NCBI GenBank assembly: GCA_947476895.1
Contig: CANJRX010000024.1
Coordinates: forward strand, 1-34,173
Direction of reading: 5' to 3'
Length of the DNA: 34,173 nt
Source: Fidelibacterota bacterium
Lineage (GTDB): Bacteria > Pseudomonadota > Alphaproteobacteria > Rhodospirillales > Rhodospirillaceae
Position numbers and translations under genes: made by a program. How positions within the stretch are numbered: the first letter of the stretch is position 1; the number at the start of each line of letters is the position of its first letter. Of this stretch, positions 10,881 through 14,475 are shown one piece after another. A model generated the notes under the pieces. That model saw only the letters and a list, made by a program, of their open reading frames with translations. It did not search any database and was not told the origin of the DNA.

Positions 10881-11972
10881 TTAGTCGAACATCTTCGCGA
10901 ACTTGCGGGCCTTACGCTTTTTCCAGGCGCCGCGGTGGTAGGCGTCAGAGCCGATCAGCGGGATCACGCTGGAAGCTTCGGCGAAGACCATCTGTTCATA
11001 CGCCAGATCAACCTTGCCCCAGGAATTGGCTTCCTTGAGGGTCGAGGACGAGCAGGCGCCGTCGCGCGTATCAGCGACCGTGATCTGCACGGCGTATTTG
11101 TGCATCTCGGCTTCGACGCCCAGGATTTCGGCGCAGACAACCGTGTCTTGCACGAAGTTCTTGGGCACGCCGCCGCCTATCATCATCAGGCCGGTGGAGC
11201 CGGCTTTGATCTTGATGTCGGTCAGTTCGCGGAAGTCGGCGATCGAATCAATGGTCATGTGCGACTTCGGATTGCGCTTCTGGTGCAAGACCAGGCCGAA
11301 GCCGGCCGAGCTGTCGGTGAAAGCCGGGCAGAAGATCGGCACATCCATGTCGAAGCAGGTCTCGACCAGCGATTCCTTCTTGCGGTTTTTACGGCCCTTC
11401 AGCCAGCGACCCATTTCCTTGATGAACGCGCGCGACGAATAGGCGCGCGGCTCCAGGCTATCGGCAATCTCACCGATCACGGCGTCGCAGTGCTGCAACT
11501 CTTCTTCATCGATGTAGGTGTCGTAGATGCGGTCGATGTAATTCGCACGCAGCTCGCTGTCGTCGATGAACTGCGAACCCTGATAGTGCTTGAAGCCGAG
11601 CGCTTCGAAGAAATCCATATCGACGATGGACGCACCGGTTGAGACGATGGCGTCGATCATGCCGTACTTCACCATGTCGACGTACACCTGCATGCAGCCG
11701 CCGGCCGAGGTCGAGCCCGCGAGAGTCAGGATGTTCGAACACTTCGAATCACCAAGCATCATGTTGAAGATGGCGGCCGCGCGCGAGGTATCGCGCGACG
11801 TGAACGACATCTTGCCCATGGCGTCGATGATGGGGCGCGCGTCGAACGACGTGATGTCGATATGCTCGACCGGCGTCGACAGCAGACGGGCCTTCTGGTT
11901 GCTCCGGGCCTTCACGGCAGGAGCTTTCTTGTTTGCTTTCGCGGCAGTCTTCTTTGCTTTGGGCGCAGCCAT
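10881..11972 (-). CDS. Deoxyhypusine-synthase-family enzyme, probable homospermidine synthase
   Basis: The 363-residue protein matches the deoxyhypusine synthase family, including the segment with the catalytic lysine: ANSWGK, Lys320, where the enzyme-imine intermediate forms. Other signatures are LTLAGSTSAGG (82-92), VSTGASIVDMDF (110-121) and MMIGGGVPKNF (263-273), the NAD-binding region. Bacteria lack eIF5A, the eukaryotic substrate; bacterial homologues are known or proposed to make homospermidine or related polyamines. The ornithine decarboxylase just upstream supports this. The first ~30 residues are rich in Lys and Ala, like a histone H1 tail. I use the ATG at 11970-11972; the longer frame would need a TTG start. 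A short inverted repeat (12032-12047) lies between the two genes. Alternative: another bis-aminoalkyl polyamine product. Confidence 0.82.
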   Translation of the reverse strand: MAAPKAKKTAAKANKKAPAVKARSNQKARLLSTPVEHIDITSFDARPIIDAMGKMSFTSRDTSRAAAIFNMMLGDSKCSNILTLAGSTSAGGCMQVYVDMVKYGMIDAIVSTGASIVDMDFFEALGFKHYQGSQFIDDSELRANYIDRIYDTYIDEEELQHCDAVIGEIADSLEPRAYSSRAFIKEMGRWLKGRKNRKKESLVETCFDMDVPIFCPAFTDSSAGFGLVLHQKRNPKSHMTIDSIADFRELTDIKIKAGSTGLMMIGGGVPKNFVQDTVVCAEILGVEAEMHKYAVQITVADTRDGACSSSTLKEANSWGKVDLAYEQMVFAEASSVIPLIGSDAYHRGAWKKRKARKFAKMFD

Positions 11973-12031
11973 GGGTCGAGCGTCCGTTCCTGATAGGGTT
12001 GAGGAAGTAGAGAAAAGGCAGAGCAATACGC

Positions 12032-12069: not shown

Positions 12070-13476
12070 CTATTTTAGCTCAAGCGCCCCGGTGCTGGTG
12101 TTACCGTCCGTGGACAATTCCCGCGACTCCGACGACGGCGGTTCAGGTGCCCTGAGCGTCAAAGGCATTTGGACCGTTTCGCCGCCCGTTGCCGGCTGCG
12201 AGACGTCACCCGGGGCGCGGCGGCGCGGGCGTTCCGCAGCCGCGATCGCTTCTGGCCACACCGTGGCCGCTTCCTGGGAATGGAAGCCGTTGAAACGCGT
12301 CTGCATGGCCGAGCCATAAGCGCCCAGCATGCCGATCTCGATCCAGTCACCTTCCTGGGTGTCCTCGGGCAGCATGAACGGGCCCTTCATCTTGTCCATG
12401 TTGTCGCAGGTGGGTCCGTAGAACACGAACGGCACCAGCTTCTCGGACGGAAGGCGGCTGTTGGGCGTAGACGAGTTCTTGCCGCTGCGGCTCAAGGGGC
12501 GCACCAGACGCACCGGGAAGCGCCAGTTCAGGGCGCCGGCGTCAAACAGGCTGCCGTAGGTGCCGTCGTTGATGAACAGGCGGCGGCCTTTGCGCAGCAT
12601 CACGCGCACCAGCATGGACGCACCCGCGGCCACCATGGCGCGGCCAGGCTCGCACCACAGCTCGGCGCCCGCGGCAATGCCGCCCGGGCCGACGATGTCG
12701 TGGGCCGCATCGGTGATGGCCGAGATGAAGCTCTCCAGCGGCGGGGGCGTCATATTCGGATAAGTCGCGGGGAACCCGCCACCCACATCCAGGATGTCCA
12801 GTTTGACCTTGGCTTTAGCAATGACATCGCCCGCGCGCATGATGGCGGCGCGGTAGGCGGCCGGGTCCATACACTGCGAGCCGACGTGGAAGCAGATACC
12901 GACCTTATGGGCGACCTTGCGGGCATGGCGCAGCAGATCGGCCGCAGCCGAGGGGGCCGCGCCGAATTTGCCGGAGAGGTCATAGGCCGCCGCATTTCCC
13001 GACACCGCCAGGCGGATAAACAGGGTCAGATCCTTGGCGGATTTGGTTTCCTCAAGGATCTTCATCAGCTCGCCTACGGAATCGAGCGAGAAGCTGCGCA
13101 CGCCAAGTTTGTAAGCCGCACGGATGGAATCGCGGCTTTTGACCGGGTGCATGAAGTGCAGGTCGACGCCTTTCGGGAACAGGCCCTTCACCAGACGCAC
13201 TTCGTCCAGCGAGGCCACGTCGAATTGGCGAATGCCGGCGGCATGCATATGGCGCAGGAAATCCGCGCCGGGATTGCACTTCACGGCATAGAGCACTTTG
13301 CCCGGGAACTGGGTAAGGAAACGCTGGGCCTGATTGCGCACGCTTTCAGGGAACACGCACTGCACGGGCGCTTCGGGTTTCAGCCGCTTGGCCACGTCGT
13401 CGACGGAACGGAACAGCGTTTCCGGCGTGTAGCTCGCAGTGGGTTGTTCGAGGTGGCGTGTCTTAAATTGGACCAT
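12070..13476 (-). CDS. Ornithine decarboxylase (alanine-racemase-fold, PLP)
   Basis: The 468-residue protein is a fold-III PLP decarboxylase. Lys66 (LYAVKCNP) binds the cofactor, HVGSQ (197-201) and CEPGRA (275-280) contact its phosphate, and YGPTCDNMD (353-361) carries the Cys357/Asp358 pair typical of ornithine (or ornithine/lysine) decarboxylases rather than diaminopimelate decarboxylase. It makes putrescine in the cytoplasm and would feed the synthase-like gene downstream. It is longer than usual (family about 380-410): residues from about 412 form a low-complexity Pro/Ser/Thr-rich tail, and there is a Ser/Asn-rich stretch near 329-345. The ATG at 13474-13476 has only a distant AGGAA site, and a structured leader with an upstream ORF precedes it, suggesting control of translation. 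Confidence 0.9.
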   Translation of the reverse strand: MVQFKTRHLEQPTASYTPETLFRSVDDVAKRLKPEAPVQCVFPESVRNQAQRFLTQFPGKVLYAVKCNPGADFLRHMHAAGIRQFDVASLDEVRLVKGLFPKGVDLHFMHPVKSRDSIRAAYKLGVRSFSLDSVGELMKILEETKSAKDLTLFIRLAVSGNAAAYDLSGKFGAAPSAAADLLRHARKVAHKVGICFHVGSQCMDPAAYRAAIMRAGDVIAKAKVKLDILDVGGGFPATYPNMTPPPLESFISAITDAAHDIVGPGGIAAGAELWCEPGRAMVAAGASMLVRVMLRKGRRLFINDGTYGSLFDAGALNWRFPVRLVRPLSRSGKNSSTPNSRLPSEKLVPFVFYGPTCDNMDKMKGPFMLPEDTQEGDWIEIGMLGAYGSAMQTRFNGFHSQEAATVWPEAIAAAERPRRRAPGDVSQPATGGETVQMPLTLRAPEPPSSESRELSTDGNTSTGALELK

Positions 13477-13740
13477 CTTTACGTTTCGTTCCTGCTATCC
13501 ACACTTGTCTAAATTGGGGCCGCTTTCGGCGGCGGCATGACTTCAGCCCAACCGGTTTCCCCGGTGCGCTTTTCTCATAACGGTGAGGACGGGATTTCAA
13601 TCCCGAAGGACGAGCGTCCTGGATAAGACCACGCAGGCCCAGGACATCTGACGGCAACGGCGAACGGCCGCCAAAGAGGCGGAGCGTCGCAGACGAGTTC
13701 TCTCTTTTAGAAGGGGCATGCACGGCTTCCTTTGATCAAT
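13477..13740 (-). promoter_or_regulatory. Structured mRNA leader of the ornithine decarboxylase gene (speF-motif-like candidate)
   Basis: About 260 bases read leftward before the decarboxylase contain an upstream ORF with a strong start and at least four hairpins in series: CCGCC-TCTTT-GGCGG (near 13675-13689), AGGAC-GCTC-GTCCT (13607-13620), CGGGAT-TGAA-ATCCCG (near 13587-13602) and ACCGG-GGAAA-CCGGT (near 13551-13565); a further GCCGC/GCGGC pairing lies near 13520-13537. The third overlaps the end of the upstream ORF. The Rfam speF motif is a known conserved leader upstream of alphaproteobacterial ornithine decarboxylase genes; position and context fit, but I could not check the alignment. 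No T-run terminator is obvious, so control by translation or Rho is more likely than classical attenuation. Confidence 0.6.
13597..13719 (-). CDS. Upstream ORF / candidate leader peptide of the ornithine decarboxylase gene
   Basis: A 40-codon frame starts at the ATG at 13717-13719 with AAAGGAAG seven bases before it, a stronger start signal than that of the decarboxylase itself. The peptide is very basic: it begins MPLLKERTRLRRSASLAAVR, continues with RCRQMSW, and ends RTLVLRD before a stop at 13597-13599. It contains nine arginines but no known domain. Arginine and ornithine are metabolically close, and ornithine-sensing leader peptides (SpeFL) control ornithine decarboxylase in enterobacteria; this peptide is not obviously similar to SpeFL. 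The stop lies about 120 bases before the decarboxylase ATG, inside a row of hairpins. Confidence 0.5.
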   Translation of the reverse strand: MPLLKERTRLRRSASLAAVRRCRQMSWACVVLSRTLVLRD

Positions 13741-14070
13741 CAGACGAACAAAAGTCCAACCAACGAAAGGACGCTTACGTCGTTGCTTAACGGCAAGCTG
13801 CTTTAGGCACGTGCGCGTAACGTCTGGGTTCGCATTTACTCCTATTGCGCCGGAAATCAAGTAAAAATCTCCCGGCGCCGGATTTTTTGGGACGCTGTGT
13901 TTTGGCGTCAACACTTTGGAAACCTTTGGCGCGCGCCTCCAGGACTTTTCGAGACAACACTATGGCGCGATCAAGGCGGGCACGCCCCGCGCAAATCAGA
14001 TAGCAACCGCCGGCGCGGCAGCGTAGTCTGTGACACTGTTTGGGGCGTCACCTTTGGGGAGGAATACACC
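13741..14070. other. Divergent promoter region between the polyamine leader and the MAPEG gene
   Basis: Upstream of the leader and of the rightward MAPEG gene lie about 330 bases without a convincing gene. An open frame continuing upstream from the leader ORF exists on the left-going strand but has no supported start. Promoters for both directions must be here; weak TTGAC-like elements occur (for example near 13905-13910, left-going), none with a convincing partner. GGAGG at 14059-14063 is the ribosome binding site of the MAPEG gene. Confidence 0.4.
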
Positions 14071-14475
14071 ATGCTCGCCGCTTATCCGCTGAGCTCTCTG
14101 GTCGTAGTGATCTCACTTTTTGTCTACATCTGGATGTCATTCAAAGTGGGCGCAGCCCGCGCAAAATATGATGTTCATGCGCCCGTCGTCGATGGCGCGC
14201 CGGAATTCCTGCGGGTTTACCGCGTGCACATCAACACGCTCGAGCAGTTGGTGATTTTCTTTCCGGCGCTGATAATGTTCGCTGCGGGCTGGGGCGATTT
14301 GCCGGCGGCGATCGTCGGTATTTTCTGGCCCGTGGGACGCGTGCTCTACGCTCTCGGCTACTTTAAATCGCCCGATAAGCGCGGCCCCGGCTTCGGGATT
14401 TCTTTTCTGTCATCGATGATCTTGCTGCTGGGCGCGTTAGTCGCCGTCGCCCGCATTTTGACCGAGCAGCTGTGA
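14071..14475 (+). CDS. MAPEG-family membrane protein
   Basis: The 134-residue protein has four predicted membrane helices (about 5-23, 52-68, 72-92, 108-130) and the family segment RVYRVHINTLEQLVIFFP (near 46-62), whose Arg/His/Asn/Glu residues bind glutathione in characterised members. MAPEG proteins are membrane glutathione transferases or peroxidases, or relatives without known substrate. Its place close to gshA, which makes the glutathione precursor, is suggestive but the genes are convergent, not co-transcribed. The ATG at 14071 is chosen because it has GGAGG seven bases upstream and starts the first helix; the longer upstream frame is noise. A palindrome follows its stop. Confidence 0.82.
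   Translation: MLAAYPLSSLVVVISLFVYIWMSFKVGAARAKYDVHAPVVDGAPEFLRVYRVHINTLEQLVIFFPALIMFAAGWGDLPAAIVGIFWPVGRVLYALGYFKSPDKRGPGFGISFLSSMILLLGALVAVARILTEQL

Follow-up and report, generated by a model that had tools for sequence, protein, structure and literature searches.

Genes at the locus

The window, that is, the whole stretch of 34,173 nucleotides analyzed here, makes up a single contig in a genome of 2.7 Mb. On its minus strand, a decarboxylase gene lies behind a leader and is followed by a second gene:

12070–13476, minus strand: gene for an Orn/Arg/DAP-type decarboxylase (Pfam PF02784 and PF00278), located behind the leader
10881–12026, minus strand: deoxyhypusine-synthase-like gene, downstream of the decarboxylase (NCBIfam 1,9-bis(guanidino)-5-aza-nonane synthase, 573.8 bits at a cut-off of 500)

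The first-pass annotation had named the enzyme an ornithine decarboxylase, a name that is not carried over here. Because the protein matches no NCBIfam decarboxylase model at its cut-off, and because of the identity of the next gene, the neutral name decarboxylase is used and ornithine is not assumed. The match of 10881–12026 to 1,9-bis(guanidino)-5-aza-nonane synthase means that the pathway may begin at arginine or agmatine instead of ornithine, so that, judged from the neighboring gene, arginine may be the substrate of the decarboxylase. The ATG of the decarboxylase at 13476 is preceded by merely a weak purine run, in agreement with the poor start signal described previously. A divergent MAPEG gene (PF01124; 14071–14475 of the window) adjoins the leader.

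The conserved leader RNA

The leader of the decarboxylase is composed of three layers, namely a near-invariant RNA, a Shine-Dalgarno sequence at the base of a long hairpin, and an upstream open reading frame (uORF). The first layer and the region ahead of it contain the following features:

13852–13861, minus strand: promoter -35-like block CTTGATTTCC, alike in 19 relatives by eye
13833–13840, minus strand: putative promoter -10-like block AGTAAATG
13704–13838, minus strand: conserved leader RNA, match of the covariance model R1 (E 2.9e-45; the single match in its own genome)
13806–13824, minus strand: GACGUUACGCGCACGUGCC, comprising the 5′ strand of helix P0 (GACG) and the CGCACGUGCC block common to ar45/speF leaders
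13769–13786, minus strand: GCAACGACGUAAGCGUCC, the second conserved block and the 3′ strand of P0

The leader DNA is present in 19 of the 61 genomes searched, its own genome counted, and in an alignment of 19 leaders (A1) the stretch between the -10-like element and the beginning of the uORF is almost invariant. The relatives with the leader, which were picked by exact pattern, are metagenome-assembled genomes labeled as Rhodospirillaceae, Alphaproteobacteria, uncultured bacterium, or Candidatus Marinimicrobia. R1, built from 19 rows with the window among them, gave a single match in each of 26 genomes out of 73 in the family; 25 of these matches are convincing, 19 of which come from the model's source genomes. 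A match in genome G031 is weak (E 0.006) and, by eye, lies away from the decarboxylase gene. Among 289 class genomes, R1 gave five matches: its own genome, three distant leaders at decarboxylases (G333, G336, and G295), and one that does not stand at a decarboxylase. Two R1 matches (L141 and L142) were rejected as decarboxylase leaders, as no decarboxylase was seen there by eye.

The range 13477–13740, within which the leader had been placed earlier, misses most of the conserved RNA as well as the promoter-like block at 13833–13861. Likewise, hairpins following the uORF had been put forward as the main feature, whereas the conserved RNA precedes and surrounds the start of the uORF. A consensus promoter scan returned another site (13911–13882) than the 13833–13861 block. 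A terminator was also considered and rejected, as a simple scan of the minus strand found no terminator-like site. The leader is real, and comparison between genomes indicates that it is regulatory.

The leader does not belong to a present Rfam family by score. The speF model (RF00518, gathering threshold 37 bits), proposed in the first-pass annotation as the mark of this leader, matches neither the window nor the rest of its genome, and it does match 6 of 190 class genomes. The same holds for ar45 (RF02347, 40 bits), which is absent from the window and its genome and matches 11 of 289 class genomes. At E≤10, no Rfam family matches 13400–14100. What stands of the proposal is that sequence blocks and layout are common to the window and extended speF.

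The uORF and its peptide

The second and third layers are given by two adjacent features:

13726–13733, minus strand: Shine-Dalgarno sequence of the uORF, AAAGGAAG (AAAGGAGG in 17 of the 19 leaders of A1)
13597–13719, minus strand: uORF of 40 codons, MPLLKERTRLRRSASLAAVRRCRQMSWACVVLSRTLVLRD, an in-frame shortened member of a conserved peptide family

The 40-codon frame with nine arginines was thus described correctly in the first-pass annotation, as was the AAAGGAAG ahead of its ATG, with a spacer that is 6 rather than 7 bases. A uORF of at least 40 codons is found in 23 of 26 distinct leaders, starting with ATG (18), GTG (2), ACG (2), or TTG (1). In these 23 leaders, the uORFs span 40–57 codons and their stop lies 95–140 nt from the chosen ATG of the enzyme. 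The other three have no scorable uORF (L018 with eleven codons, L071 at a contig end, and L078 of the rhizobial type with none); in this L018 leader (L018/L081), a frame of just 11 codons accompanies a retained RNA.

Conservation of the frame in homologous leaders was borne out at the codon level. Over the last 24 codons of 19 intact uORFs, pN/pS is 0.28 in frame versus 1.27 and 1.72 in the shifted frames, values to be read with pS near saturation and with sequence pairs that are not independent. The same 19 uORFs show a third-position excess with a permutation p of 2e-5. The window, L005, L006, and L007 were scored apart from this test. In the window and in three near relatives, the uORF is relaxed, with a whole-uORF ratio of 0.60–0.71 against the intact ones compared with 0.43 among the intact ones themselves, and all four retain the frame and end in VLRD. 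The codon-level conservation expected of a ribosome-arrest leader peptide is therefore present in the 19 intact relatives and weak in the window and its three near relatives.

The peptide is conserved at the C-terminus up to the stop codon, with a consensus ending in DCRHIAWDGHDLVVISRFDVLRD. It is mainly the C-terminal CRHIAWDGHDLVVISRFDVLRD that is conserved, including three well-kept arginine positions. In the window peptide, the consensus DGH residues are missing through an in-frame gap. When 297 genomes of the order were searched with a peptide profile, 15 family genomes matched at E 2.4e-13 or better, all of them adjoining or overlapping R1 matches, and 7 further matches were weak (E 5.9e-4 to 0.008). 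Membership of a known protein family was rejected, with Pfam giving three single-member matches at E 0.12–0.29; NCBIfam and solved structures gave zero matches to the uORF peptide. This peptide is not known to resemble the enterobacterial leader peptide SpeFL.

Predicted structure of the leader

Consensus folding of the leader and of the spacer between uORF and decarboxylase placed the following elements:

13754–13770, minus strand: 5′ strand of hairpin P3, in which CCUUU (13766–13770) is the anti-Shine-Dalgarno sequence (consensus fold of 19 sequences)
13729–13745, minus strand: 3′ strand of P3, ending in AAAGG of the Shine-Dalgarno sequence (consensus fold of 19 sequences)
13720–13727, minus strand: AGCCGUGC, predicted partner of GCACGUGCCU (13814–13805) in the alternative long-range helix P1, with one C-A mismatch in the window
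13590–13605, minus strand: possible hairpin CGGGAUUGAAAUCCCG spanning the stop codon of the uORF, recognizable by eye in many of 17 relatives and absent in some
13547–13566, minus strand: spacer hairpin 1, weakly supported (consensus of 17 spacers)
13519–13536, minus strand: spacer hairpin 2, GCCGC-CGAAA-GCGGC, weakly supported (consensus of 17 spacers)

Jointly, the predicted P3 and P1 bury the Shine-Dalgarno sequence of the uORF. None of the 15 pairs of P3 is broken in any of the 19 sequences; four pairs show one-sided changes (exchanges between wobble and Watson-Crick pairs) and none shows two-sided ones, so that the structure within the window's family rests on conservation. Eight of the nine pairs of the predicted P1 are invariant in the 19 sequences. 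P1 and P0 (GACG../..CGUC, ar45-like) are mutually exclusive. The energy model favors P1 over P0 by about 4–10 kcal/mol, whereas the broad family described below supports P0. Furthermore, a long-range pairing between CGCACGUG and a 3′ CACGUGCG-like strand is possible in canonical speF leaders, by our own reading of these, and in the window leader. This pairing is nearly invariant in the window's family and, by eye, absent in the broad family.

The consensus fold of the 17 spacers consists of two hairpins and a helix around the uORF stop. Its covariation term is unfavorable (+18.0), and the spacer hairpins are therefore weakly supported. Hairpins, as reported earlier, are predicted here as well, but the whole leader folds no better than shuffled sequences (z -0.82; 22 of 100 shuffles were as good).

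A broad family before polyamine-type genes

A pattern scan on the two core blocks in 385 class genomes returned 87 places in 64 genomes. As a reversed control pattern gave about 39 matches, many of the 87 places may be due to chance, and the claim of a broad family rests on the 55 that precede polyamine-type genes. Sixty-six places were examined and three were studied apart (the window, L021, and L143); 18 were left out by eye, one of them, in G339, as a near copy and the others as being without the look of the core. Of the 66, 50 precede a decarboxylase of the same superfamily, 5 a homospermidine-synthase-like gene, and 11 neither, as typed by tblastn at E≤1e-3 with two decarboxylases and one homospermidine-synthase-like protein as queries. 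Two of the five homospermidine-synthase-like genes were typed by Pfam as saccharopine-dehydrogenase family; genes of this family behind the element are taken by us to be homospermidine synthases. At L186 (contig 13 of G216), a homospermidine-synthase-like gene and then a decarboxylase stand behind one element, which suggests, from the gene order, a single polyamine operon. None of 20 broad-family loci matched Rfam at gathering thresholds, and twelve loci gave no match to speF or ar45 at E≤1; two ar45-positive places among the 66 (L159 and L160) lie outside both sets.

In 48 of the 55 leaders, an ATG lies 52–82 nt past the core, at a distance of 9–16 nt from where a Shine-Dalgarno-like run begins, as found by a script that sought a purine run followed by an ATG 6–23 nt later. 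This ATG opens a uORF in 39 leaders and the decarboxylase itself in 9, among which L191 was moved by eye from the scripted uORF call to a direct enzyme start. In L143, the enzyme likewise starts directly at this site, with no uORF. In these 9 leaders and in L143, hiding or exposing the site can therefore control the enzyme itself.

For the structure of the broad family, 36 leaders were aligned blind to structure (A3), comprising 34 of the 42 listed among the 48 and two of the window's family. RNAalifold predicted only the 5′ domain on A3, with compensatory changes in P0; P3 was not returned and was supplied by hand for the structure test. In the drawn structure, 90.0% of cells are paired compared with 27–59% in slid structures, and 11 pairs carry two-sided changes compared with 4.7 in shuffles, of which 1 in 500 was as high. 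Slid structures likewise have 6–9 pairs with two-sided changes, and three of six slides (-2, +1, and +2) give 19, 24, and 20 two-sided cells versus 19 for the real structure. As slid structures rival the real one in this respect, the covariation is moderate.

The uORFs outside the window's family have ratios of 0.55–1.17 and show no clear peptide-level selection. A similar 14-codon uORF occurs in seven leaders, five before a homospermidine-synthase-like gene and two cut by a contig end; with a ratio of 0.90 across the seven, no peptide selection was seen. In nine leaders of several lineages (L147, L165, L202–L205, and L208–L210), the uORF ends have the nucleotides UCnAGUAU or similar in common, which are possibly conserved as RNA and not as peptide.

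Proposed mechanism and alternatives

The earlier claim is supported in so far as the polyamine-type decarboxylase has a leader that combines structured RNA with a conserved upstream frame and is related to the alphaproteobacterial speF leader. By sequence comparison, we find a conserved RNA, a Shine-Dalgarno sequence within the predicted P3, peptide-level selection in relatives, and a recurrent link to polyamine genes. We lean, by little more than an even chance, toward the leader being a divergent relative of extended speF (ar45 plus speF) outside the present Rfam families, which sequesters a Shine-Dalgarno sequence and gates a leader peptide. The 5′ domain, in which P0 joins the CGCACGUGCC/GCAACGACG core, would fold and be followed by the long hairpin P3. 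With P3 closed, CCUUU would pair with the Shine-Dalgarno sequence and initiation just downstream would be blocked. In the window's family, the gated start codon would open the uORF with its selected C-terminus. A signal from the polyamine pathway may then, through the RNA, set the frequency of uORF translation. Ribosomes that slow down or stall at the conserved C-terminus could change the structure before the decarboxylase or protect the message and thereby set the enzyme output. For this mechanism, we infer the switching of the RNA, its ligand, the arrest of the ribosome by the peptide, and the direction in which enzyme output changes.

A wider and more tentative proposal is that of a two-layer polyamine sensor spread in Alphaproteobacteria, in which speF-type RNA would gate one start site and the window's family would add a nascent-peptide sensor. 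The gated site would be filled by a lineage-specific leader ORF, by the enzyme itself, or by the short uORF before homospermidine synthase. If so, two circumstances would have kept speF an orphan riboswitch candidate: the absence of the start codon in the lineage tested, and the assignment of the 5′ domain to a separate sRNA, ar45.

The leader might also be a translational riboswitch acting by RNA only, where the uORF is a ribosome-loading site that couples Shine-Dalgarno access to downstream unfolding and the peptide sequence is irrelevant. This would fit an RNA whose conservation across families exceeds that of the peptide, the direct enzyme starts in 9 of 48 leaders and L143, and the lack of clear peptide-level selection in uORFs beyond the window's family. 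It leaves unexplained the in-frame pN/pS of 0.28 over the last 24 codons in the window's family, where synonymous change is near-saturated, and we consider it rather unlikely. Control by the leader peptide only, a SpeFL-like nascent-chain sensor of ornithine, arginine, or polyamine with the RNA just setting the translation rate, would agree with the C-terminus conserved up to the stop, with the 95–140 nt between uORF stop and chosen enzyme ATG in 23 leaders, and with the possible stop-codon hairpin in many of 17 relatives, as well as with the description of SpeFL as an ornithine-sensing arrest peptide in the part of PMC8429421 consulted. However, the conservation of the RNA is stronger than that of the peptide, L018 retains the RNA without the frame, and the window's own peptide is degenerate, which makes a peptide-only sensor improbable.

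Another reading makes the 5′ domain a trans-acting, ar45-like sRNA with a secondary role as a leader. For ar45, independent expression beside speF in Bartonella is described in the consulted part of PMC7717549, and canonical leaders end ar45 with GGGC-UUUUUU, but the window's family is without that U-run (UCCUUUCGUU), the simple scan of the minus strand revealed no terminator-like site, and the Shine-Dalgarno sequence and uORF come immediately after, so that a primary sRNA role appears very improbable. Arginine-supply attenuation, in which the arginine codons of the uORF slow ribosomes at arginine shortage, is what the arginine-rich frame had suggested in the first-pass annotation. The window frame contains 9 arginines in 40 codons, whereas its two alternative frames contain 4 in 39 and 5 in 40, and in the broad family the arginine fraction is 0.127 in the uORF frame versus 0.088 in the downstream proteins. 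The other frames of the broad family, however, reach 0.134 and 0.170, and over 23 leaders of the window's family the fraction of 0.142 lies between the 0.099 and 0.160 of the other frames, as base composition predicts. Many arginine positions of the uORF also differ among relatives, and the scan that found no terminator-like site weighs here as well. As judged from these sequences, arginine richness is not the conserved feature of the uORF, and a supply sensor is scarcely credible.

The leader as a Shine-Dalgarno-sequestering relative of extended speF would matter in several respects. No ligand accompanied the 2005 description of speF, and the new leaders place a buried Shine-Dalgarno sequence and a start codon inside the element. 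They also extend it to a second, homospermidine-synthase-like type of polyamine gene, and the conserved peptide is a candidate for stalling tests. As related RNAs stand before polyamine genes across the same class, a long-unsolved control element becomes testable by reporter and toeprint assays.

Comparison with known leaders

In the parts of the 2005 report consulted, extended speF consists of a conserved sequence close to the transcription start site that leads into a paired stem and is followed by a bulged stem-loop of ~80 nt, ahead of a COG0019-type decarboxylase (PMC1273637). There, in-line probing of speF showed no binding of six metabolites, and more conserved blocks ahead of the start codon are mentioned with no role assigned. 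The Bartonella paper of 2020 calls the function of speF unclear in the portion consulted (PMC7717549), the consulted pages of a Sinorhizobium survey list the locus of speF under the name smrC45, possibly an independent sRNA (PMC2573895), and a 2020 review, as far as consulted, lists speF as an orphan riboswitch candidate and credits Greenlee 2018 with additional conserved speF parts (PMC7266159). Greenlee 2018 may already include some of the broad family. Within the parts of open-licence papers covered by our literature search, neither a uORF in a speF leader nor the element before homospermidine synthase is reported.

The window and extended speF plus ar45 stand before the same kind of gene and have the same order of blocks, CGCACGUGCC, GCAACGACG, and a long hairpin with a purine-rich 3′ strand. 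Canonical leaders have CGCACGUGCC and AGCAACGACG in the same order followed by a long hairpin, and in L052 and L053 ar45 is directly followed by speF ahead of a decarboxylase. The extended-speF layout and the common blocks fit the window, as judged by blocks and their order and with a putative transcription start. Unlike canonical extended speF, the window leader has no U-run after the 5′ domain and carries a strong Shine-Dalgarno sequence, a start codon, and a uORF, none of which was seen by eye in the canonical leaders inspected. L078 bridges the two types: it combines GCACGUGCCUAA..AAGCAACGACG with a hairpin of the rhizobial type and lacks the uORF.

Further leaders deserve mention. In L052, L053, L084, and L087, the 5′ ar45 domain ends in GGGC followed by UUUUUU and has the look of an intrinsic terminator, which could make ar45 a prematurely ended leader. 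Between the speF element and the start of the decarboxylase, inspection by eye of the rhizobial-type leaders L052–L057 and L078 shows a hairpin whose loop is CUCCA. Upstream of the decarboxylase in relatives without the element, L024, L025, L026, and L233 have variants of a common block, CC(U)AAGCAC[GU]GC.GC, which is possibly another undescribed leader; L024 and L025 additionally carry GCACGGCGACCGGCUC.

With SpeFL, the window has in common a short ORF in a polyamine context, which in the window sits before a polyamine-type decarboxylase. Features are also common to the window and odc1 (uORF-25-1), which in the sections of PMC8632094 consulted is an alphaproteobacterial decarboxylase leader whose main stem holds the ribosome binding site in its right shoulder and whose uORF encodes a conserved peptide; pfam01124 is named there among the genes downstream of odc1. 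The odc1 uORF encodes 11 amino acids and its UUG precedes the enzyme's own UUG by two bases, whereas the window has an ATG uORF of 40 codons, an ATG enzyme start, and no UUG-NN-UUG tandem. The uORFs of the window's family end 95–140 nt before the enzyme. Two other leaders upstream of decarboxylases (L226 and L229) are odc1-like, with UUGAAUUG tandem starts and without the CGCACGUGCC..GCAACGACG core. An identity of the window leader with odc1 was rejected, as start arrangement and sequence differ, and odc1 is, with its different sequence, the nearest published analogue of the window leader.
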